A stretch of 41,481 nt of DNA from a virus. The notes under the pieces were generated by a model. It saw nothing but the letters and a program-made list of their open reading frames with translations. It had not been told where the DNA came from and made no database searches. The stretch's first letter is position 1. Every line of letters begins with the position of its first letter. The stretch spans positions 1 through 41,481 of the IMG/VR virus record IMGVR_UViG_3300010885_019152; one strand, given 5' to 3'. A program made the position numbers and the translations under genes. Positions 3,435-41,481 of this stretch are shown one piece after another.

Positions 3435-3653
3435 CTAGTGCTTAGCCCTGTTCTTTGACTTGGACATAATCTTAAGGTTACGGAACGAGTTGTTCATAGG
3501 GTTACCATCGTGATGATCTACGTCTTTACCACGAAGTCTAGCTTTTCCGTACTTTCGGATCATAAGCCTTCTGGCCATATTACGCCTAGCCCTACGTTTG
3601 ATCTGAGCAGACGTTCCCTGGTACTCTCGGTATTCCTTAGCGTAGTCTCTCAT
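3435..3653 (-). CDS. HNH endonuclease
   Basis: 72-residue nuclease of the small HNH type. The basic N-terminal half (ARRNMARRLMIRKYGKARLR) is followed by the core motif DVDHHDGNPMNN (residues 44-55) and NLKIMSKSKNRAKH, matching the H-N-N pattern of the beta-beta-alpha metal finger. Its ATG overlaps the preceding stop. Free-standing HNH genes beside terminase genes are common in phages, where they act as homing nucleases or assist packaging; which applies here cannot be told. Confidence 0.85.
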   Translation of the reverse strand: MRDYAKEYREYQGTSAQIKRRARRNMARRLMIRKYGKARLRGKDVDHHDGNPMNNSFRNLKIMSKSKNRAKH

Positions 3654-3946
3654 ATGTTCAGACCAGTATCAGAACCACTCATTGTGGAATCGCCAATCCT
3701 AAGCCTTCCTTGGTTAAAGCTGAATCTATTTGTAGTTGCTCTAGGCATTGAAGAATTCTGTGTTTGTTGCTGATCCGTTGGTTGCTGAGTCGTTAGTTGC
3801 TGAGTATTAGAATACGATGGAATAGAATAGTTGGGAGATGTTGTTTGCGTGTTGGCTTGTTTTGCCATAGACTCTCTTCCAACTTTTATTCCGTCTGCGT
3901 ATGGCTTAATAATAGCCTCGCCCATTTTTTGATAAACTCCACACAT
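3650..3946 (-). CDS. Small hypothetical, possibly virion-associated
   Basis: 98 residues. A short N-terminal segment (MCGVYQKMGEAIIKPYADG) is followed by a Gln/Thr/Ser/Asn-rich linker and a C-terminus ending SGSDTGLNI. The ending resembles the SGGGINI tail of T7 gp7.3, a small virion protein, but the similarity is limited to those residues. It lies between terS and the HNH gene. The ribosome site is AGGGTAAG. Confidence 0.6.
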   Translation of the reverse strand: MCGVYQKMGEAIIKPYADGIKVGRESMAKQANTQTTSPNYSIPSYSNTQQLTTQQPTDQQQTQNSSMPRATTNRFSFNQGRLRIGDSTMSGSDTGLNI

Positions 3947-11494: not shown

Positions 11495-12037
11495 TTACTT
11501 CCTTATCTTTGCAAACTCTATAAATGGTTCTTTATTAAGACCATATTCCTTGTGTTCATTGATAAAAACAAAGCCCATCCACTTTAACCAAGTAATATGC
11601 AAGTCATTTTGTTTGCTAACGACATTGAACAAAAGTGGATAAAGCTCACTAAATGCCTCTAGCCACAATCTACAATTACGCAAGAAAGGAATTTTAATTT
11701 TTAAAATATCATCTGATCCTACTAACCAGATTATGCCAGCAAACTCAGAATAAGGCACTACACCAAACATAGCGATTATAAGTCCCTCAAACTCAAGGGT
11801 ATAAGTGTGTGTGCCGTATATCTTTATTGCGTCTTCAAGCTGATCTTCAGCAGGTTCTTTTGAGTAAGCTTCGACCTCTCTTAAGTCAACTTTACGCAAT
11901 CTAGGGCCAAGAGATAAGCCATCTCCAGGTTTAGCCTTTCTAATCAAACACTTTTGTTTTTTGTAGTTCCAAAAGGTTGAAGAGTTAAGCCCTTTGATAT
12001 GAATTTGTGAGTGTGCCTTCAAAGTCAGCAGATACAA
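11495..12037 (-). CDS. gp13-like protein (T7 Gp13 family, GNAT-like)
   Basis: Up to 180 residues. The core from about residue 32 (IRKAKPGDGLSLGPRLRKVD, then TLEFEGLIIAMFGVVPYS and a C-terminal WLKWMGFVF) matches the phage gp13 family, which has a GNAT acetyltransferase-like fold and is needed for virion assembly in T7. The first ~18 codons overlap the end of the gp12 gene, so the true start may lie further downstream (a TTG stands at residue 31). No convincing ribosome site decides this. Confidence 0.82.
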   Translation of the reverse strand: MYLLTLKAHSQIHIKGLNSSTFWNYKKQKCLIRKAKPGDGLSLGPRLRKVDLREVEAYSKEPAEDQLEDAIKIYGTHTYTLEFEGLIIAMFGVVPYSEFAGIIWLVGSDDILKIKIPFLRNCRLWLEAFSELYPLLFNVVSKQNDLHITWLKWMGFVFINEHKEYGLNKEPFIEFAKIRK

Positions 12038-15000
12038 AACAACAGGGATAGTGGGAGTTGTTTAATAGGGTTAAGAAGCAGTTATCAGACCTTAAGAACA
12101 ATGGGAAGCGGTAAGTACCAGACTTAAGTGAGCCGTTGTTAACAAAGTCATAGTTGTAGGAATTGCCTTGAGCTAGGTCACCAGACGTAACAGCAATAGA
12201 AAACCGCTTTGAGTTTGTATACGAGATATACCCATACTTTAGCTGGTAATTCCCACTGGATACCAAGATCTGGCCTCCCTTTTGACCTGGAGCACGTAGG
12301 GCTACTGGAGTTATGGTGTGAATCATAGGATAGGAGATGCCTACGTAAATTGGACCAGCATATTGGCTTAGTTGCCCTTGTATGGTGATAGTAGTTACAG
12401 CACTAGATCCTGTTCCAGTTATAGCAGAACTTAGTAATGGCACTACGTCTAAATTAGATTTTGAGTATAAAACTTGGTCTTGGTTTAAGTGAATATTTTT
12501 AACGTTATCAAATACGATTGCTTTAGATTTTACATCAGTAATTAAGTCTGGATTCTCATCGTCAAATGTAAAATAGCTAATTAGATTTGATCCAAAATCC
12601 ATATTAAGCTTTTGGTACTGGATGTTTCTGGATTCTGGAGTGTACTTACTAGCGTTTGAAAATGTTCCGTTAGAAGAAGAGGCAAGAGTAGACATAGTAG
12701 GCCCATAGGATGCGTAGTAATTACTTTGGATAGTTGAAGATGCAGTGCTTATAATAGCTATGTTATCAATTTTTCCACTAAAATCAGAGAAATTGTAAGA
12801 ACCTATATTTAAGTATGCAGATGCTTGTGAAAATTCAGAGGCAAAAACAACAGCAGATGTTCCACCATTAAGTTGAATATAAAGATATGTATTTGTTGAT
12901 ATTGTTACAGAAGTAATAGTGAAGAAATTCCAAGAATCAGCAATAACACTATTCCCTGTAACCCCTGTCCAGCCATTGTTTAAAGAAACTTTCTTAAAAA
13001 CTCTTAATTTTCCTCCTTCTATTGCAAGCTGTATTGACCTCCAATTATCATTTACTCCTTTATCCAATTCAAAAATAATTTGGTTATTTGTTGAAGTAGG
13101 TTTAAAATAACCGCTAATTGTGAAATTATGGGAAGACAAAGTAGACCTGTAAAAAGTAGCTGAATTAGATGAGTATAAGTAAGAATTTCCGTCTCCTAGC
13201 AACCGAACAGAAGAGTCTACTTCTGGAGAAGCTCCAGCCACAATTGTTGGTAGTTGCGAAGCATAATTTAAGGGTAACGTTATAGTCGTAGTGTCTTGGC
13301 CTGAATTATAGCTACTAGTAGTCCCAGATAAATTATAAGTGCTGTCTGGCCAAATTGTAACCATCCTGTCAATACGAGGCATATACGGAAGGTATGCTTT
13401 TGTTTGAAACGACTGAAAATCAATTTTTTCAAGGTACAGAGAGTAAGAATCCTCTTTTCTTTCAATAAGAAGATATAGGTTTTCTTTCTTAAAGAATACA
13501 TTAAGAATCCTGGTGGACGGAGCAAACATAAACTTACACCAAGCCCCCTGTACTCTTTCAGACCCAACGTTTAGGTACTTATAAATATAAAGAACATTGT
13601 TTACAGAAGGATCTCCAAAAGTCTTTTTTGTCAGAACTGCTAATACGTTTTCTGTGTCAGAAGCAGTTATTTTAGATATTTTGCCTTCAATATACTTAGG
13701 GATGTTAAGGGTAATCTCATTGGCATCCATATATCCGTTTTCTGGATTTAGGAAGTATTCTTTAACTCCCGAAAAGCTATCTTTGAAGTAAGGAAAATAA
13801 ACATTTTTCCCTGTACCAACAGGAGCAACTTCTGGGATGGCAGAGAAATTAGTTGTAATTTGAATAGAAGCCGTTTTTGCTGTTAAATTATCTGTGCCAA
13901 TTAAACTGAACTGAGCGTTTTCGGAAAAGAGAAGCAATCGATCAAAAAACGGAATAGCGTAATTTAGATTAGATACGTTTACCGAACTAGATGCAATATC
14001 AATAGGATCTGTGTCTAGATTTTGTGTAATAGTTGTTTTAAAGAAATTAAAGTACTCTCCAGATTCGGAGAATATAATGTTTTCTTCCGATAAAAACCCA
14101 AGTCTATTTTTATAAAAGAAAATATCATTAATTCTTTTGAGAGATTGAGAAGGTAAATTTAAAAAAGATGGATTTTTGTTTGTCTCGGTATCGCCACAAA
14201 TCTTATCAGTCCATTTTGGAGGTTGATATGTTGATCCCCCCCAGCTTCTAGATACTCCGTCTAAAGGGGTAAAGGCAAAATTACCGCTAGAAAGACGCAC
14301 CAGTGCCCAAGGCATTGTAGCTGAATCAATTTCATAATATTCCCCAGGGGCTATTGTTTCCTTCCAAAGCCCCTCTCCTTGAATTACTGCACTACTAGGA
14401 AAATCAAATTTTACCCAATATTCATCTCCTGTGTCTTGGGGGTATCCTATAATCTTGTAAACAACTCCTTTTACTCCGTTTCTAGGTAGCTCAGTAAAGG
14501 ATTGAACTTCTTCCCAATTTAATTGAATTAATGCACCGCTTGCACTATCTGAAACAGAAATATCCCATATTACATCTCCATTTGCGTCAAAACCTGTAGT
14601 GTTCGGAGTGCCTGTAGCCGTATTCCATAATATCAAGGTTGATCCTTGATTTGTATAACTCCATCCAGATATGCCTGTTGCATTCGCAATATTGGTAGCA
14701 GTTCCAGTTCCATTTGCGGTTGCAGTTCCAGGTGAACCATTTGACCACATACTCCTCATCTCTGAAGCCATTCCGTCCGTTTGTAGCATAAGGTTGTTAA
14801 GTTCACAAAAGCCTGAAAATAAACTTGTAGTAGCCCCAAAATTATCAATTCTACTAGTACGAAAAAAAGTGTCGTTTGATTGGTCTGCTCCTTGGGAAGT
14901 CATATAGGTTGTATTAGAAATTGTGTATTGTGTAAGCCTGTTTACGCCAGCCCCACTTACAACAGGAGTAGTGCCTATTCTAATCTGCATTGTACATCTT

Positions 15001-15524
15001 TCAGTAATCTGTTTAAATGTTATCATCGCTACTTTAATTCTTCTATTTTTTGTTGTACTTACAATAGATTGCGTGACTAAATTTGAAGTATATTTTGGAT
15101 AAGCTGTTTTATTTAATACAAACGTATAGTCAGCAATTGTAAGCATTTTAAAATCATCTGTGCTTCCTGTAAGATATGCTGAAGCTGAAGCTGGAGGGGT
15201 AAGGCTAGGAGTTGCACCTCCATAATAAACAAGTTTTTCAGTCCCATCTAAATCCCAAACTCTAATCTTACCTTCTCTAATCTCAGTTATGTATTTTTCT
15301 GTTTCACTCCGATCAATAAAGTGTGAAGAAGAATTAGAAGAAGCTTGAGTAGTAGGAGTAAGAAGTCTTTTAATATGCTGGGATGGAGGACGTTTAGTAA
15401 GCCCCTCTACAACTGAAGGGTACGTATTAACAGACTCCTCTGCCTGGGAGGGAAACCTCATTGTACGAGGTTGCTGGCTTACCCCACTTACAAAGTTCGG
15501 GATGTTAGCGATGATATTAGGCAT
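11985..15524 (-). CDS. Tail tubular protein B (T7 gp12-like) with LamG-like insertion
   Basis: Nozzle protein of the short tail. The N-terminus (NIIANIPNFVSGVSQQPRTM, then SVVEGLTKRPPSQHI) and C-terminus (HYPCCFVSADFEGTL) are hallmarks of gp12. At 1179 residues it is about 385 longer than T7 gp12 (794). Much of the excess is a beta-rich block at about residues 768-925 with LamG/concanavalin-like signature segments: LGDGNSYLYSS, FTISGYFKP, WNFFTITSV and GKIDNIAII. Such domains usually bind glycans. The ATG overlaps the gp11 stop by eight bases. The Ser/Thr/Asn-rich segments flanking the insert are likely surface-exposed. Confidence 0.93.
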   Translation of the reverse strand: MPNIIANIPNFVSGVSQQPRTMRFPSQAEESVNTYPSVVEGLTKRPPSQHIKRLLTPTTQASSNSSSHFIDRSETEKYITEIREGKIRVWDLDGTEKLVYYGGATPSLTPPASASAYLTGSTDDFKMLTIADYTFVLNKTAYPKYTSNLVTQSIVSTTKNRRIKVAMITFKQITERCTMQIRIGTTPVVSGAGVNRLTQYTISNTTYMTSQGADQSNDTFFRTSRIDNFGATTSLFSGFCELNNLMLQTDGMASEMRSMWSNGSPGTATANGTGTATNIANATGISGWSYTNQGSTLILWNTATGTPNTTGFDANGDVIWDISVSDSASGALIQLNWEEVQSFTELPRNGVKGVVYKIIGYPQDTGDEYWVKFDFPSSAVIQGEGLWKETIAPGEYYEIDSATMPWALVRLSSGNFAFTPLDGVSRSWGGSTYQPPKWTDKICGDTETNKNPSFLNLPSQSLKRINDIFFYKNRLGFLSEENIIFSESGEYFNFFKTTITQNLDTDPIDIASSSVNVSNLNYAIPFFDRLLLFSENAQFSLIGTDNLTAKTASIQITTNFSAIPEVAPVGTGKNVYFPYFKDSFSGVKEYFLNPENGYMDANEITLNIPKYIEGKISKITASDTENVLAVLTKKTFGDPSVNNVLYIYKYLNVGSERVQGAWCKFMFAPSTRILNVFFKKENLYLLIERKEDSYSLYLEKIDFQSFQTKAYLPYMPRIDRMVTIWPDSTYNLSGTTSSYNSGQDTTTITLPLNYASQLPTIVAGASPEVDSSVRLLGDGNSYLYSSNSATFYRSTLSSHNFTISGYFKPTSTNNQIIFELDKGVNDNWRSIQLAIEGGKLRVFKKVSLNNGWTGVTGNSVIADSWNFFTITSVTISTNTYLYIQLNGGTSAVVFASEFSQASAYLNIGSYNFSDFSGKIDNIAIISTASSTIQSNYYASYGPTMSTLASSSNGTFSNASKYTPESRNIQYQKLNMDFGSNLISYFTFDDENPDLITDVKSKAIVFDNVKNIHLNQDQVLYSKSNLDVVPLLSSAITGTGSSAVTTITIQGQLSQYAGPIYVGISYPMIHTITPVALRAPGQKGGQILVSSGNYQLKYGYISYTNSKRFSIAVTSGDLAQGNSYNYDFVNNGSLKSGTYRFPLFLRSDNCFLTLLNNSHYPCCFVSADFEGTLTNSYQRA

Positions 15525-18500
15525 TTTGAATAATCATCCAACAAAATGTAGAAAGATCGCCTGTCTGAGTTGTTCCTCCACTCTGGAGTGAAGTGACTAC
15601 AAATGAAGTTCCAGCAGTTTTTGCTGTTACAGCTAATTCACCCAACGCAGTGGACGCATTCACTCCCTGCCTTGTTAAAAGAATTACGCAATCAGCAGTG
15701 ACTAAAGAATTAGAAATAGTTAAAGTTCCAGCAACTAGCGTTCCTGTCCCACAAGTACTATTAGATCCTTGTTTAATTTTAAGTGCCGTACCTTCTTGAG
15801 GCAGAGAAACTGAACCTGTGCTAACTTCAAACCTTGTTAGAAGTGTGCCTCCACTATTAGCTTTAGATACCCTAAGAATAGGTTGTGTGATGTAAGTTTG
15901 ATTTGTATTCGTGTTTGCCACGTGCACAACAGGTGTGTTCTCATCAGTCGCAACTAATGTAAATTCTGCTGGAGCAGACCCAACATTTCTGCTTTCGCCT
16001 ACTTTAAGTTTTCTTTGATTTGATCCACCTGTGATAGTAACAATTGAATCATTACTTGAAGACCCCCCACCAAGAATAAGACCACCTCTAAGATGCTCTG
16101 TAGGGTATGAAAAACCATAATTAGTTAGATTCCAATTAGTTGATAGTCCGTAGTGACCAAGGCTTAAAGAACTATTATTATTTTTGTGTGTACTTACTCC
16201 AAATCCAACATTTTTACCTTCATTGTGCTCATTTAAAACAACTTCATTGTAATTTCCAGTTAGAGAACTTTTGAAAAAATACTCATCAATAACAAGAAAA
16301 CCAGTTTGTGTAAGCCACTCTCTTGCCCCAATTCTATGGATTTCATTGCTTGGATGCACACCATCTGATACCCAATTATTTTTAACTCTAAAAGACCACC
16401 CTCCTGTAGCTTCATTTTTATCAAAGTAGAAAAACCCTCTTTCTCCAGCTATTTTCTTATCAATTGCCCTAAATTGAGGCATTAAGGTGTCGTTTACTTC
16501 ATTATCTGTAGAACCCACTAGCGTAAATGTTATGTTGGGAAGTGCAGTTGTGAATTTATTAATTAAAGCATTTAATTTTACTTCATAGTCTCCAATAGCT
16601 TCTTTTGATTCAAGAATAATATGATCAATCGCTAAATTTTGGACAATTGGAGTGAAAATAGCGGAAGGAACTTGTGCAAGTTGAGCCAAAGTCGCTCCAC
16701 CTACAGAAAAATTACTATATACAATTCCCCCTCCAAAATCAAATCCATATCCTTGAGATCCACCATCTAAAATTTTAGCACCAATTACAATTGAAGTTCC
16801 AGTAAGCCCAACCACTCTGAATTTATAAAAACCCCTTGTTAACGATGTTGTTGCAGAGACTTGGCCAATGGTTGTCGCAGAGTTTGTATTAATTGAAGTT
16901 AGCCCAGGAGCGTCTGTCCACGTAACATTATCTGTAGAATATTGAACTTTTAGTGTTCCACCTCCGCTTTGTCCTATTGTATACAAAGTAAAGCTATTAG
17001 CCCTTTGAAAACCAACATATCCATTTGAAGAACCAGCTTCCGTTGAAAAATGTCCAATTGAAAGCGTCCCACTAGCTGGAACAGAATAATAAGTCCCTGT
17101 TATCCAGTAGTTGTGATTAGCGTCTGAACCTGAATTTCCTGTAAGTGAATACCCAACAGCACCATTTTCAGGGTAGTGCATCAAAGCACTAAAAGATCTC
17201 CCCCCAACTCCGTAGGCTTTCATTAAATCTAGTGATATTTCTCCTGGCATCTGATGAGAAACGCTGTCTCCAAGAGAAGCTATGTGTACTTTGTTTTCTG
17301 AATTTTGTCTGGATTGTAGCCTAAATATAAGAGGATCAAGAACAGAAGTACCTGCTGTCTGTACAATTGTAGTTTGATTAATAGTTTGATTAATAGTTTG
17401 ATTATTTGAACCAGTTGAGCCAGTTGAACCTGAAACTGACTCACCAGAAGAAGTGGCAAATGAAGCAAGGCCAAAAGACCTATCTAAAACTCTGCTTACA
17501 TCATACGAATCAAACATACTATAATCTGCATTTTCTGAATCATACTGAACTGCTTCGCCCCTTGCCCTTGCCTCTTCAACGTTTAAAGCATTAGCAATAT
17601 CTAATTTTTTGAGAATAACTGCAAGTTCTTTAGCTGTTCGTATGATTGTGTATCTTTGAAATTGCTTAGGGATTGAATCCCAAGGCACTTGTAAAGTAAC
17701 CGAGGCTCTAATAGAAGATGAAAATAAGGAAGTAGATTTTTTTACATCCCAGAGTTTAGTGCCTCTTACAACGATATTGTGCTTATAATCTAAGTATTTA
17801 TCGGCATCTACAGACAGAACAGGATAAGGAAGCTGAGAAAGAAGAATCTCACTATTAGAATCAATAGTTAAAATCCTGTTTTGTTCTGTGTTAAAATGCC
17901 ATCCCTCTGTTTGAACAAGCTTTTCTATTTCATTTAAAAGGCTTTTTGCTGTATATGCTACATCTGAACCAGCTATTTGGGATACAGGAGGTATGTTTAA
18001 GTACCTAAGTACTTGATTTATTGCCTTATTGACTGAATCGGCACTTTCAAATGCTTCAACTAAATTTACATTAGGGTTGATTACATTATCTAGACCACTT
18101 GCTCCATCCAAAAGAAGTTGTTGCTTTTCACGTTCCAAAGCCAAAAAATCAACAAAAGAAATTCCAAGCTTTCTTAAATTAATTTGAATTGCAGTAGTAT
18201 TAAAATTACTAGCCCTAGCATCGGTAGATGTTGTAGTACCCTTTGCAATAACAAGGGCTTCCTCTTTTTGAAGAGGATCTAGTGCAAGAAATTCTTTTTC
18301 GGTTAGACCTAAACGATTAAACTGAGTCCTATAAGTATCAAAAGTATCAGTTACTGCCGTTGTTTTGTTTTGAATCCTGTTTTGATAGTAAAGCCTACCT
18401 TGACGCTCAGTAAGGTTAGTAGCAGAAGCCTGGATTAACTTTAGTTTATCGTCTACAGGAGAGGCAAGGAATACAGACTGATTAATACCAAGGGCATCTA

Positions 18501-19065
18501 ATTCAGTTGAATAATTAGCAAAATTTGAATCTGCCCCAGTTCTTACTTCATATTCTAAAAGATTGGCAAAAGCAAGTTGCTCGTCTACTTCAACTAACTT
18601 TGCTTGGGTTTCTTCTGGGCGAGTGCGTACAAGAAAAAGCCTAGAAGCTCTTACTACAATGTAGTTTCTAGCTGGTTCAGGAAGAAGTTCAAAATCAAGA
18701 AGAGTTACTACATCTCCAACCAGGTTAGAGGTAAATGTGTAAGAAGCTGTTTTAGCGTTATATAGTTTATTGCCTCTTAGTGTAAGCTTTATCGTTGGAA
18801 ACGCAGTTTCAGATATGTTAACCCTTATTGTATCCGAGCCTACAGAAATTGTGTTGTCACCTGCCCTAGTAAGAGTTTTATCAATATCAGTATTAAAACT
18901 CCATCCACGGCTTTGAAGACTACGATCTACTTCATCTAAGATATTGGAAGCAATCGTTGCACTGGCTGAATCAGAAATATAATCGAGAGAAGTAATCGGG
19001 GATTCTCCCACTGAAGAGAGAATTGAATTGATGGCTTGTAATTTAGTTGTAGGGGCTGAAGCCAT
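15517..19065 (-). CDS. Fused tail adaptor: two gp11-like domains, SGNH esterase and fibre
   Basis: 1182 residues, six times T7 gp11 (196). Residues 8-187 are a gp11 adaptor domain (AINSILSSVGE, LQSRGWSFNT, NYIVVRASR). Residues ~345-530 are a second copy (AINQVLRYLNIPP, TEGWHFNT, RYTIIRTAKE, DYSMFDSYD). Between them are three helical repeats with an LG(I/L)xxxxFLA pattern. An NQTINQT/GSTGS hinge (545-567) leads to an SGNH hydrolase: GDS at 599-601, a Gly block near 789, and DGVH with Asp901 and His904. A beta-rich insert at about 640-770 splits this domain. The C-terminus (~930-1182) is beta-rich and fibre-like. Predicted role: portal-tail adaptor that also carries a glycan deacylase and receptor-binding part. 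The start ATG has only a weak ribosome site and lies just after the capsid terminator. Confidence 0.9.
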   Translation of the reverse strand: MASAPTTKLQAINSILSSVGESPITSLDYISDSASATIASNILDEVDRSLQSRGWSFNTDIDKTLTRAGDNTISVGSDTIRVNISETAFPTIKLTLRGNKLYNAKTASYTFTSNLVGDVVTLLDFELLPEPARNYIVVRASRLFLVRTRPEETQAKLVEVDEQLAFANLLEYEVRTGADSNFANYSTELDALGINQSVFLASPVDDKLKLIQASATNLTERQGRLYYQNRIQNKTTAVTDTFDTYRTQFNRLGLTEKEFLALDPLQKEEALVIAKGTTTSTDARASNFNTTAIQINLRKLGISFVDFLALEREKQQLLLDGASGLDNVINPNVNLVEAFESADSVNKAINQVLRYLNIPPVSQIAGSDVAYTAKSLLNEIEKLVQTEGWHFNTEQNRILTIDSNSEILLSQLPYPVLSVDADKYLDYKHNIVVRGTKLWDVKKSTSLFSSSIRASVTLQVPWDSIPKQFQRYTIIRTAKELAVILKKLDIANALNVEEARARGEAVQYDSENADYSMFDSYDVSRVLDRSFGLASFATSSGESVSGSTGSTGSNNQTINQTINQTTIVQTAGTSVLDPLIFRLQSRQNSENKVHIASLGDSVSHQMPGEISLDLMKAYGVGGRSFSALMHYPENGAVGYSLTGNSGSDANHNYWITGTYYSVPASGTLSIGHFSTEAGSSNGYVGFQRANSFTLYTIGQSGGGTLKVQYSTDNVTWTDAPGLTSINTNSATTIGQVSATTSLTRGFYKFRVVGLTGTSIVIGAKILDGGSQGYGFDFGGGIVYSNFSVGGATLAQLAQVPSAIFTPIVQNLAIDHIILESKEAIGDYEVKLNALINKFTTALPNITFTLVGSTDNEVNDTLMPQFRAIDKKIAGERGFFYFDKNEATGGWSFRVKNNWVSDGVHPSNEIHRIGAREWLTQTGFLVIDEYFFKSSLTGNYNEVVLNEHNEGKNVGFGVSTHKNNNSSLSLGHYGLSTNWNLTNYGFSYPTEHLRGGLILGGGSSSNDSIVTITGGSNQRKLKVGESRNVGSAPAEFTLVATDENTPVVHVANTNTNQTYITQPILRVSKANSGGTLLTRFEVSTGSVSLPQEGTALKIKQGSNSTCGTGTLVAGTLTISNSLVTADCVILLTRQGVNASTALGELAVTAKTAGTSFVVTSLQSGGTTQTGDLSTFCWMIIQNA
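17371..17430 (-). repeat. Short tandem repeats coding the hinge of the fused gp11
   Basis: A 12-bp unit AGTTTGATTAAT occurs twice plus a partial third copy (17371-17404), coding the INQT repeats. It is followed by a 9-bp unit CCAGTTGAR repeated from 17411, coding the GST repeats. All repeats keep the frame. They mark the junction between the structural gp11 domains and the esterase/fibre part, and could promote domain exchange by slippage or recombination. Confidence 0.75.
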
Positions 19066-21662: not shown

Positions 21663-23237
21663 TTATTGTTGTTGTTGCTGTTCCATCTGCTGTTGCATTG
21701 CTGTACCCGCTACATCAGATATTCCCTTGATTGTCTGTGGACCTAGTTCCCTTGTCAACTGCAAAGCTTGAGCTTGTTGCTTTTGTGCTTGCATTTCCTC
21801 TGCCGACTTAATTAGCCCCTCAATATCAATATTTAATGCGGTTGCTCTGCGTTTAAGATAATCTTCTACGTTTACATATTGAGCAAGTGCCTCTGGACCA
21901 AAAATTTGAGCTAAACCAGACAAAAACAAGTCTAACTTACTTAAATCGTTACCTCTTCCAAGAGCTTCGACACCAGTAACAATTAACGGACGAATAAGAT
22001 TATTTTTAGGAAGCTTAGGAAGAGATTTGTCAGCATTCATCCTATCCATAATCCTATTAACCATAGGAAGCTGAAATTCTTGGCTAAGAATTGAATAAGC
22101 ACCTCCAAGAGCACTTTCTAGCTCTTGAGCCATATACCTAATCTCTTGAGCAGTTACTCTTTCTGCGTCTCGTTGAATCGAAGTGTTTAACAGGAACGCA
22201 TAGGATAACCTGGTTTGGATCTCAACCATTACCTCTTTAGCAACCCTAAAATCACCATACTTTTGTAGCTGAAGTGCATTTACGTCTACAACATTACCTG
22301 AAACAAATTGACCATTCTTGGCTTCTGAAAGAGAACGTATTTTTGTAGTGCCGTTAGGGTTAACCAGGAACAACACTTTGGAAGCACAAGCAGAACCCTC
22401 TACAACGGCTTGGGTAAGGGCTTCTAGTGACCTTAAATCTCCAAGGTATTCTTCAACTAGTCCACGCCCATAATCTTCTCCGTCCACACGGCTAAAACGA
22501 AGAGGAATAAATGGGCACTTGTCTTTATCGTAAGTTCCCTCTGAACCAGGGATAATCTGTTTATTTAGCTCTTGGTACACTTTCCATTTTCCATCTTCTA
22601 AATGAACACAAGTAAACAAATCTAAATATTTATCGTGATTTTCTTCTTTATACTCCCCATCCTCGTAGCTTTCTTTAGAATTTAATACTTCTTTAGCTTC
22701 TTCTGGTAAAGCAGAAGGGGAAATGCTTTCTTTTGTTACAATAGTAATAACGTTACCAGAAGGATCTCTTTTTACAACGTAGTTTGTAAGCCTAAAAACT
22801 CGTACTCCACCTTCGTCTGGAAAGTAAAGAAGGCTATTTCCACCTACGATTAGTTGTTTTAAAGCTTCAAAAAAGGGAACTCTAAGAGCACTTGTTTCAA
22901 TTTCTTTTGTAACTGCATCCTCAACGTCAGACAAAGCTTTTTCAATTTCAGTCTTTAAAGAATCAGAACCACCAAGTTTTTTAAACTTATAGGGATCAAT
23001 CATTAACCTAAAAAACGAAGAATTTGGAGGAAATAAAGCCAAAAGAAGCTTAGAAGATATGTTGTTAACTCCTCTAGCTCCTATTCCCTGGAAAGGAGTT
23101 TCAAAAATATTAGATTTAGATTCTCCATCTGGAGGGAATAACATTGGGATCGTTAACAAAGCACAATCTCTAGCTCGTTGTACGTAAGAAGTGCGTTGCC
23201 CTTCTAGCTCATAATATAAAGCAGAAGCTGTTTTCAC
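21663..23237 (-). CDS. Portal protein (T7 gp8-like head-tail connector)
   Basis: 524 residues (T7 gp8: 536). The dodecameric portal at one capsid vertex takes part in packaging and joins the gp11 adaptor. The N-terminus (ASALYYELEGQRTSYVQRAR, then LTIPMLFPPDG) and the core (VDGEDYGRGLVEEYLGDL, RDAERVTAQEIRYMAQEL) are diagnostic. The start is GTG, overlapping the TGA of the upstream gene. The C-terminus ends in a run of Gln residues (MQQQMEQQQQQ), encoded by near-repetitive CAA/CAG codons. Confidence 0.95.
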   Translation of the reverse strand: MKTASALYYELEGQRTSYVQRARDCALLTIPMLFPPDGESKSNIFETPFQGIGARGVNNISSKLLLALFPPNSSFFRLMIDPYKFKKLGGSDSLKTEIEKALSDVEDAVTKEIETSALRVPFFEALKQLIVGGNSLLYFPDEGGVRVFRLTNYVVKRDPSGNVITIVTKESISPSALPEEAKEVLNSKESYEDGEYKEENHDKYLDLFTCVHLEDGKWKVYQELNKQIIPGSEGTYDKDKCPFIPLRFSRVDGEDYGRGLVEEYLGDLRSLEALTQAVVEGSACASKVLFLVNPNGTTKIRSLSEAKNGQFVSGNVVDVNALQLQKYGDFRVAKEVMVEIQTRLSYAFLLNTSIQRDAERVTAQEIRYMAQELESALGGAYSILSQEFQLPMVNRIMDRMNADKSLPKLPKNNLIRPLIVTGVEALGRGNDLSKLDLFLSGLAQIFGPEALAQYVNVEDYLKRRATALNIDIEGLIKSAEEMQAQKQQAQALQLTRELGPQTIKGISDVAGTAMQQQMEQQQQQ

Positions 23238-24298
23238 GGCTTATAGTAAAGGCCAGAACCTAATGTATTCTTGTACAGATTTAAAAGTTGTGTTCTTTGA
23301 TCATCAATGTTTGGTTTAAAAATACCGATAAAGCTTATGTGTGCTTTCAAACAACCTGAAGTGTTTGGAAGGTACATATTAGAAGAATTCCAATCAAGAG
23401 ATGTCTGTTGAACTCTAGTTCCAATAGTTAGTCCAGTAAAGTTATTCCTAAATCCATCAAAATAAGTAGTTGAAACAGGATTAATAGCTAATTTGCTTAA
23501 TGTAGAATTAACGTATAAACCAATATAATTATTAGATGTTTGTTTTGCTCTAGCGGTAATCAAAAAAGGCAAATAACCCTTCATAAGATCTAGCGTATCT
23601 ATAAAATTTCTTGTGTTAGAATTAGGACCACCTTCAGTATTCAAAATTTTCTGTGCAGTTGAATACTGGTGGTCATAGTTATTGTCTAATGAATTCGAAT
23701 CTGCATACATACCCCAAGCTCCTCCAACAGAATTTCCAATTCCACCAGTATCTTGAATTTCAAGAAGATTTCCAATCCAGCTTGTATCTGCCATCGAAAG
23801 GGTAATATTAAAATTTGGTTGTTCCTCTCCAGTTCCACTAGCGATCATCAATATAGATACATCGTTATTAAAAGTATAATTTGGATAAGGCCCAAGAAAA
23901 AGTGCACCACTGCTAGAAGTTCCATTTCCTGTTCGTATTCCTAAATCACCTCTGTCTGAAAAACCATTTCCATTATAAAATTTGTAAGGAAGCAAGCCAG
24001 CAGAAAAACCTCCGAATGTATTAAACTGCGTTCCAGTTGCTATGTTTTGTCCGTTTCTAAAAGCACAGCAAACACTTCTATCCCAAATTCCTAAAGATTT
24101 TAATCCTAAAATAAAATCGTTTATGCTTTTTCTTGGGTCAATAGTTGTAGTAGAAACAGAGGCTAATGTGCTGTCGTATGTTGGTAAAGAATATGAACTT
24201 GGAATTGAATTTTGAACAATGTAATTAGAAGCATCAAAATCGTACCCTTGAAGTTTATTCAAAGTACCAAGAGATAAACCTGAACCAAGGCTAGGCAT
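23234..24298 (-). CDS. Fibre/adhesin-like virion protein with ConA-like features
   Basis: 354 residues, rich in Gly, Asn, Ser, Thr and Tyr, beta-rich. A helical stretch (DPRKSINDFILGLKSLGIWD) precedes a beta-sandwich-like part (about residues 75-345) like the lectin-type domains of phage fibres. The end, KAHISFIGIFKPNIDDQRTQLLNLY, resembles the closing strand and helix of LamG-like units. It ends LGSGLYYKP, sharing GLYY with its upstream neighbour's end (DSGLYY). Its stop overlaps the portal GTG. The position before the portal is unusual for a fibre, so it could be a head-associated adhesin. Confidence 0.6.
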   Translation of the reverse strand: MPSLGSGLSLGTLNKLQGYDFDASNYIVQNSIPSSYSLPTYDSTLASVSTTTIDPRKSINDFILGLKSLGIWDRSVCCAFRNGQNIATGTQFNTFGGFSAGLLPYKFYNGNGFSDRGDLGIRTGNGTSSSGALFLGPYPNYTFNNDVSILMIASGTGEEQPNFNITLSMADTSWIGNLLEIQDTGGIGNSVGGAWGMYADSNSLDNNYDHQYSTAQKILNTEGGPNSNTRNFIDTLDLMKGYLPFLITARAKQTSNNYIGLYVNSTLSKLAINPVSTTYFDGFRNNFTGLTIGTRVQQTSLDWNSSNMYLPNTSGCLKAHISFIGIFKPNIDDQRTQLLNLYKNTLGSGLYYKP

Positions 24299-35368: not shown

Positions 35369-35628
35369 TTTAGTAGCTCCACAAATACAGGAGTTGCCTC
35401 TCCAACATAAGCTCCTTCTACATTAAAGGAGAAGTATTCTTCAGCGTCTGTACGACTCATCTTATCTCTTTTCATAAGAATCTTAATACACTTATGCTTA
35501 TCGTAGGCTACGGATAAAGGCTTATCAAAGCTCCACCCTACACCGAGGATTGCTTCATCAAATCCATCAGCAAAAAGCAGAGGCTTGTAATCGTGCTGTT
35601 CCTGTATCCGTTCCCTAAGTAAACTCAT
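35365..35628 (-). CDS. Conserved phage hypothetical
   Basis: 87 residues. The pattern FADGFDEAILGVGWSFDKP, then VAYDKHKCIKILMKRDKMS and EEYFSFNVEGAYVGEATPVF is common in small proteins of tailed phages from many environments; its function is not known to me. It lies directly after the integrase with a 4-bp overlap, so it is translated from the same message. Confidence 0.75.
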   Translation of the reverse strand: MSLLRERIQEQHDYKPLLFADGFDEAILGVGWSFDKPLSVAYDKHKCIKILMKRDKMSRTDAEEYFSFNVEGAYVGEATPVFVELLK

Positions 35629-36464
35629 ACCATCTCTAAAGCCTCCCTTGCCCTGTCCAACTGATTGGGCGAAAGGTGAGCATACCTCATCGTTACCTGT
35701 ATGTTCTTGTGCCCCATAAACTCCTTAATAGTTACTATAGGAACACCTGCCTGTGCAAGCCTAGAAGCACACGTATGCCTCAGACAATGGGGAACAAACT
35801 GATCGTCTGCCTCAAATCCAATAGCTTTCTTCGCCTTCTGCCAAAGGTAGTGTAGCTCAGCGTAGGTAATGGTCTTAAACACTCGCTCAGTACTCTCTGA
35901 ATCTCCTGTGCCATCTAGAAGGGCTACCAACCGCTTTGTTAAGGGAACTGACCTTGGGCTTCCGTTTTTAGTATCCCAGAAGGTTGCCGTACTATTCTTA
36001 ATGTCCTTCCAGGTTACACTTAATGCTTCCCCTGCTCTCGCCCCTGTATCCAAAAGAAACACAATAAGCGTACCAACATCCACCCGATTGGCTTTATAAA
36101 AATACTCAACAAGAGTCTGTTCCTCGCCCTTGGTGAGCCAACGTATTCTGCCAGTAGCTTCCTTTTTCTTTTCAATGCGTGGAGTCTTGGTAATAAACTC
36201 ACGCTCAAGTGCAAAGCGAAGCATCTTTGATAATGCCGAAAGCTTTCTGTTAATCGTGCCATTGGTATTCTGTTTGGTCTGTAAGCTTTCCACATAGGCA
36301 TCAATCTGCTGAACACTTAAATCCTTTAGCGGAGTATCCCCGCCAAAGAATGCAACAGCAGAAGCCGTGTTGACTGAAGCAGTAGCCTCACTCTTTGTTC
36401 CCTTCCATAGCCTGTTCATTGCTAAGCTTTGTAGCTCAGCCCAAGTCACCTGTTTATCGTTCAT
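35625..36464 (-). CDS. int: Tyrosine integrase
   Basis: 279-residue site-specific recombinase that should insert the phage into the host chromosome and excise it. The SAM-like core-binding domain spans about residues 6-92 and the catalytic domain 105-279. All six active-site residues are visible: R143 (GARAGEAL), K166 (DTKNGSPR), H226 and R229 (HCLRHT), H252 (FMGHKN) and Y261 (MRYAHL). A strong ribosome site (GAGGAGG) precedes the ATG. No N-terminal arm-binding domain is obvious. Integrases just upstream of the RNA polymerase are known from temperate T7-like phages of marine bacteria. A tRNA-like attP candidate lies about 550 bp upstream. Confidence 0.96.
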   Translation of the reverse strand: MNDKQVTWAELQSLAMNRLWKGTKSEATASVNTASAVAFFGGDTPLKDLSVQQIDAYVESLQTKQNTNGTINRKLSALSKMLRFALEREFITKTPRIEKKKEATGRIRWLTKGEEQTLVEYFYKANRVDVGTLIVFLLDTGARAGEALSVTWKDIKNSTATFWDTKNGSPRSVPLTKRLVALLDGTGDSESTERVFKTITYAELHYLWQKAKKAIGFEADDQFVPHCLRHTCASRLAQAGVPIVTIKEFMGHKNIQVTMRYAHLSPNQLDRAREALEMV

Positions 36465-41358: not shown

Positions 41359-41481
41359 AAAAAGTTTCAAGGCATCAAATAAACTCAAATTAAAAGCGAG
41401 TTTAATAAGCTTTTATTAAAAACGTTTTAATGCTGAATGGAGCAGATCCAAATTCGATTAGATTAATAGACTAGTGAAAGG
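41359..41481. repeat. Terminal direct repeat, right copy
   Basis: Identical to 1-123. See the left copy. Coverage in reads would tell whether this is a real terminal repeat (doubled depth) or assembly overlap. Confidence 0.9.

Follow-up and report, generated by a model that had tools for sequence, protein, structure and literature searches.

A tandem gp11-type tail adaptor fused to an SGNH-type, putatively receptor-binding arm in a T7-like phage genome

The usual picture of a T7-type tail is that of an invariant core whose fibres can be swapped. A long gene in a viral DNA of 41,481 nucleotides (IMG/VR record IMGVR_UViG_3300010885_019152; the whole stretch analysed is called the window below) raises the question of whether the tail adaptor, a part of that core, can itself present the receptor-binding parts. 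The initial annotation had proposed a single frame of 1182 codons at 15517-19065, joining a gp11 adaptor to an SGNH esterase and a fibre-like C-terminus. We examined the frame, its domains and its relatives, and the coordinates of the features are collected in Table 1.

Table 1. Features of the tandem adaptor gene and of two further genes of the window.
Feature (residues)	Position in window	Strand	Basis
Whole gene: tandem gp11 adaptor plus SGNH-type, putative receptor-binding arm, 1182 aa	15517..19065	-	Open frame; PF17212; same plan in L001
gp11 lobe 1 (9-186)	18508..19041	-	PF17212; pLDDT about 90; Foldseek matches to T7, P-SCSP1u and KP32 adaptors
Inter-lobe helical linker (187-335), three LGIxxxxFLAL-type helix-pair repeats	18061..18507	-	77-83% identical in relatives
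gp11 lobe 2 (336-532)	17470..18060	-	Homology to lobe 1; profile match 182 bits; pLDDT about 87
Low-complexity Ser/Gly/Asn/Thr neck (533-590)	17296..17469	-	Chains of unfused relatives stop shortly before the neck or in its first part
SGNH/GDSL-type domain (591-925)	16291..17295	-	PF13472 E 5e-4 with insert removed; homologues L188 and L189
Beta-sandwich insert (641-775) in the SGNH-type domain, galactose-binding-like	16741..17145	-	Weak PF22633 hint
Block I GDS (599-601), predicted nucleophile Ser601	17263..17271	-	Invariant with L001 and L188
Block II Gly789-Gly790	16696..16701	-	Motif alignment
Block III position, ESKEA (819-823), not GxND	16597..16611	-	Motif alignment; L189 has GMND
Block V DGVH (901-904), predicted Asp901/His904	16354..16365	-	Motif alignment
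Variable beta-rich region (926-1084)	15814..16290	-	Identity to L001 just 58%
Tailspike-type C-terminal domain (1085-1182), PF24146 K1-lyase_C	15520..15813	-	Pfam
gp12 nozzle protein containing a LamG lectin-like insertion	11985..15524	-	PF25675, PF13385
Second fibre candidate: variable body behind a conserved N-terminus of 27-35 aa	23234..24298	-	Upstream of portal gene; clade comparison

The fused frame and its genome

The frame proved to be real but lies on the minus strand, running from 19065 to 15517 with its 3' end overlapping gp12 by 8 nt; on the plus strand, stops occur throughout this interval. A contig from another dataset (L001) encodes the same plan in a fused frame of 1175 aa, 86% identical overall, and dN/dS between the two was 0.05-0.32 in every domain, junction included, which reveals purifying selection along the entire frame. 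In a third contig (L002), 99.6% identical to the window, a 14-nt deletion (about 2042-2088 of that contig) breaks the frame near codon 711, disrupting the arm and leaving the adaptor half open; it is either a broken allele or an assembly error. This frameshift is what might be cited for the whole frame being an assembly chimera or a recent functionless accident, a notion to which we give almost no credence, given the independent contig at 86% identity and the dN/dS below 0.32 throughout; the chimera is refuted by both. A separate arm protein made from an internal start was likewise rejected: no start codon was found between residues 518 and 605, so that an internal start retaining the GDS motif is not available.

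The ends of the window carry an exact direct repeat of 123 bp (1-123 = 41359-41481) and those of a sister record, G009, a terminal repeat of 127 bp; because of these repeats both were treated as complete genomes, and both are classed as linear in the record list. The gene order is T7-like, with tyrosine integrase, RNA polymerase, primase, DNA polymerase, portal, scaffold, capsid, gp11 and gp12 followed by gp13-16 and the small and large terminase subunits. The 1182-aa gene thus stands between the major capsid and gp12 genes, and the portal and gp12 are of T7 type. The integrase (35625-36464) makes a temperate lifestyle possible for this T7-like genome. A small HNH endonuclease gene (PF13392, 3435-3653) is located between the two terminase genes, next to a variable gene of 98 aa (3650-3946).

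The doubled adaptor

The PF17212 (Tube) model matched the 1182-aa protein with 202.8 bits (curated cutoff 22.3; E 4.8e-60), and Pfam reported two stretches because two gp11 lobes are present. The gp11 N-terminus of the initial annotation was therefore right as far as it went, the second lobe having been overlooked. Lobes 1 and 2 share about 23-24% identity (E 9e-15); of the 33 positions at which 80% or more of single gp11s agree, 29 are kept in lobe 1 and 22 in lobe 2, those of the GWxFNT motif included. An AlphaFold model built on 42 sequences had an overall pLDDT of 76.7, with both lobes well above this value and a helical linker of lower confidence. The top Foldseek matches were all adaptor chains (8i4m, 5mu4, 6r21 and 7box), lobe-sized, with E 8.5e-13 to 8i4m_G and target TM-scores of 0.7-0.8 against T7-type adaptors.

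The linker retains its high identity even to distant relatives whose lobes are mostly 50-84% identical, its conservation equalling or exceeding that of the flanking lobes, and a search of 50,697 phage records with it returned no significant match. By these sequence comparisons it appears confined to the tandem-gp11 clade, and it is probably a functional tail element.

Of 167 frames with gp11 in the loci retrieved, the complete ones fell into three size classes, namely single gp11s of about 172-307 aa, tandems of 538-542 aa and tandems with an arm of 1178-1185 aa (stop-to-stop). In many of the loci L066-L080 the gp11 is single, about 270-307 aa long, and carries an insertion inside the lobe. 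Eight unfused tandem relatives of 536-544 aa (L003, L004, L005, L095, L096, L097, L099 and L201) have the two lobes and the linker as here and stop at the neck, without the SGNH-type arm. In the gp11 tree the lobe 1 sequences formed one group and the lobe 2 sequences another, which points to one old duplication (or fusion) underlying the clade, in a tree whose long lobe-2 branch, as the program warned, may attract other long branches. The adaptor is doubled across the whole clade and bears an arm in one lineage. As the adaptor part is a tandem gp11, the twelve copies assigned to it earlier cannot be assumed.

The arm and its probable exchange among relatives

The GDS and DGVH motifs that had been read as SGNH catalytic blocks are both in place at residues 599-601 and 901-904, each occurring once in the protein. 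The block I serine, the block II glycine and the DxxH of block V follow one another in order and are kept in L001 and in L188 (identical to L194), a 570-aa protein from a 47.8-kb IMG/VR record without gp11. The block III asparagine (GxND) is absent from the window protein, where ESKEA occupies 819-823, and it is likewise missing from L188, which reads QAKEEN at this point. L188 aligns across the whole SGNH-type domain and its insert (27% identity, E 2.2e-7, a single-genome E from a set of 399 genomes). A further protein, L189 (26% identity, E 9.6e-7), has the canonical GxND and a PF13472 score of 44.4 bits, above the cutoff. Both matches remain significant after correction for the 399 genomes, and through these full-length homologues the SGNH homology of the domain, as read from the alignments, holds.

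Direct matches of the arm were weaker. The Pfam GDSL models gave E values of about 0.0005-0.01, below cutoffs, with PF13472 reaching 17-21 bits on the window protein against a curated cutoff of 32.9. Weak matches only were obtained with phmmer against the PDB, acetyl xylan esterases among them at E 0.4-1.3, and a profile-profile comparison against five bacterial SGNH sequences extended over only the 18 residues at block V (score 27.9; the top score among 30 shuffles was 18.6). A DNA pattern search of the DGVHP type led to L186, whose likeness is limited to the block V region. Viral contigs searched for arm relatives yielded only L001, L002 and one 30-residue insert match, 57% identical, in an unrelated phage protein (L082). 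AlphaFold, run on residues 585-1182 with two sequences only, gave a pLDDT of 31. Given this value and the missing block III asparagine, catalysis is uncertain; since L188 lacks the same residue, the domain is termed SGNH-type here and not an esterase. Thus the motifs of blocks I, II and V stand, and the esterase activity claimed along with them is not established, the Asn block being absent and PF13472 under its cutoff.

These same two features would suit a non-catalytic binding module, that is, a degenerate esterase serving as a lectin on the adaptor, with the asparagine replaced by ESKEA here and by QAKEEN in L188. We regard this as possible but not probable, as Ser601, the block II glycine, Asp901 and His904 have been kept despite diverging flanks.

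The fibre-like, beta-rich C-terminus that had been proposed was borne out by a tailspike-type domain, PF24146 matching residues 1102-1179 with 47.5 bits (curated cutoff 27). The C-terminal 98 residues of this type also occur in Streptomyces phage proteins, several of them named tailspike, tail fibre or minor tail protein in their annotations.

Conservation is unevenly distributed along the chain. Between the window and L001, identity is 97-99% in the lobes and linker, 70-87% in the SGNH parts and insert and 90% in the C-terminal domain, while dS rises from 0.07-0.23 in anchor and neck to 0.36-0.98 in the arm: a conserved anchor bears a diversifying arm. Two sister genomes, G009 and G010, encode proteins mostly 94-99% identical to those of the window, and their gp11 is a tandem of 539 aa. 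The arm query found no matching stretch in either of these genomes, its positive control (L001) matching only outside them. Compared with G009, lobe 1 is 84%, the linker 83-84% and lobe 2 just 53% identical, so lobe 2 has probably moved with the arm; compared with G001, lobe 2 is 63% and lobe 1 only 64% identical. Joint exchange of lobe 2 and arm is the simplest reading of these identities, although lobe 2 may instead have diverged fast following the fusion. That near-identical sisters possess the doubled adaptor but show no arm suggests that host-recognition parts can be swapped through changes of the adaptor itself. The portal (21663-23237) is only 81% identical to that of G009, scaffold and capsid being 97% identical, and it may have been exchanged too, like the adaptor parts.

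Host recognition and comparison with known tails

The adaptor had also been said to replace a separate tail fibre. PF03906, the N-terminal tail-attachment domain of T7 gp17, was matched nowhere in the four clade genomes G000, G001, G009 and G010, even with E allowed up to 10. The relatives CRP-113 and LUZ100 encode their fibre in the interval separating gp16 from the small terminase gene, and in the window gp16 is directly followed by a 72-aa gene and then by the small terminase subunit. The claim is thus sustained in that no gp17 is recognisable; replacement itself is unproven, because a second fibre candidate (23234-24298) exists upstream of the portal gene, and the sisters lack the arm. The counterparts of this candidate in L095, L097, L099 and G001 contain a LamG domain which is absent from the window product (354 aa, versus 512-567 aa in relatives). 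A LamG domain also lies in the gp12 nozzle, at about 12738-13169. Host glycans could therefore be contacted by three or more proteins of this phage, among them the arm, the 23234-24298 product and the LamG-bearing nozzle.

It may be that the LamG-type gene encodes the true main fibre of the clade and that the gp11 arm is an accessory adhesin only. The gene is found in all four long clade genomes examined (window, G001, G009 and G010), its conserved N-terminus of 27-35 aa and highly variable bodies form a typical fibre pattern, and it was the sole candidate noticed in the clade genomes without the arm. The loss of the LamG domain in the window and the failure of the product to match any known tail fibre family, which would also suit a head or collar decoration, make us doubt this explanation without dismissing it. 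Far less probable in our judgement is that proteolysis separates the tandem adaptor from the arm, which would then act as a free or separately attached enzyme. The low-complexity neck would be a natural linker for such processing, unfused relatives end there, and the adaptor half is intact in L002 despite its deletion; but L001 and the window both have the fused frame, there is no alternative start at the junction, lobe 2 covaries with the arm, and no cleavage motif was identified, in the course of a non-systematic search.

We consider it likely that the gene encodes a tandem adaptor carrying its own receptor-binding arm. The two gp11 lobes would contribute to a ring beneath the portal, off which the arms would point sideways as receptor-binding parts, and the SGNH-type domain would bind a host surface glycan and probably deacylate it. 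Lobe 2 would be the presentation lobe, exchanged together with the arm and altering host range, and lobe 1 and the linker would remain with the tail core. In the window genome, where gp17 is missing, the arm would do some or all of its work, and a second receptor-binding protein may come from the LamG-type gene that precedes the portal.

The symmetry of such a tail can be considered against that of P-SCSP1u, in which twelve adaptors with fibre docks hold the fibres, each fibre trimer resting on two adaptors, with a six-fold nozzle (PMC10575957). A two-lobe chain could fill both non-equivalent adaptor positions, so that six chains would supply twelve lobes and present six arms; alternatively, twelve chains might build two stacked or decorated rings. 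The two stoichiometries are equally possible. A more speculative proposal, which we advance tentatively, is that six two-lobe chains form a twelve-lobe ring free of the twelve-to-six mismatch with the nozzle, in a tail that would change host range by trading lobe 2 along with its enzymatic arm and would have no T7-type fibre.

T7 gp11, or tail tubular protein A (PF17212; 7box, 6r21), and P-SCSP1u gp22 (8i4m) resemble the lobes described here in fold and sequence, and their genes occupy the same position between major capsid and gp12. Known T7-type adaptors consist of a single lobe of about 185-240 aa, twelve copies of which carry gp17 as a separate fibre; the window adaptor instead combines two lobes with a linker and an arm of 650 aa, in a genome with no recognisable gp17. 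SGNH-type deacetylase domains have been described on separate T7-like tail spikes of the Pectobacterium phages Q19, PP47 and PP81 (PMC7693777), behind a T7-fibre N-terminal domain, and G7C gp63.1 (N4-like) carries one on a separately attached spike; here the domain lies inside the adaptor chain. Esterase tailspikes have also been published for Schitoviridae (PMC11654681). Our literature search for a tandem gp11 or an adaptor-SGNH fusion found no report of either.

The premise that gp11 only anchors fibres was too strict. Glycan hydrolysis has been reported for the gp11-type TTPA of Klebsiella phage KP32 (PMC5440376) and receptor binding for the TTPA/TTPB of Vibrio phage OWB (PMC7241545); these proteins have host-surface activity but are single-lobe and without a dedicated enzyme domain. 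If the arm works as we propose, a core part of the tail would itself bear a receptor-binding arm in one lineage, and the label 'tail tubular protein A' given by gene callers will conceal a receptor-binding protein. Sisters with and without the arm provide a natural comparison of host range and tail symmetry as a function of the adaptor. A further parallel is a 741-aa protein of Vibrio phage VP2 (Q6RCF4; AY505112 9329-11554, our L202), which, as here, joins a short-tail adaptor fold to C-terminal surface-type domains in one chain; it differs in having a single adaptor lobe followed by Ig-like domains and a Gly-rich C-terminus, without an enzyme domain. Other long viral proteins with an adaptor fold were listed by Foldseek besides that of VP2, which is annotated merely as similar to outer capsid protein.
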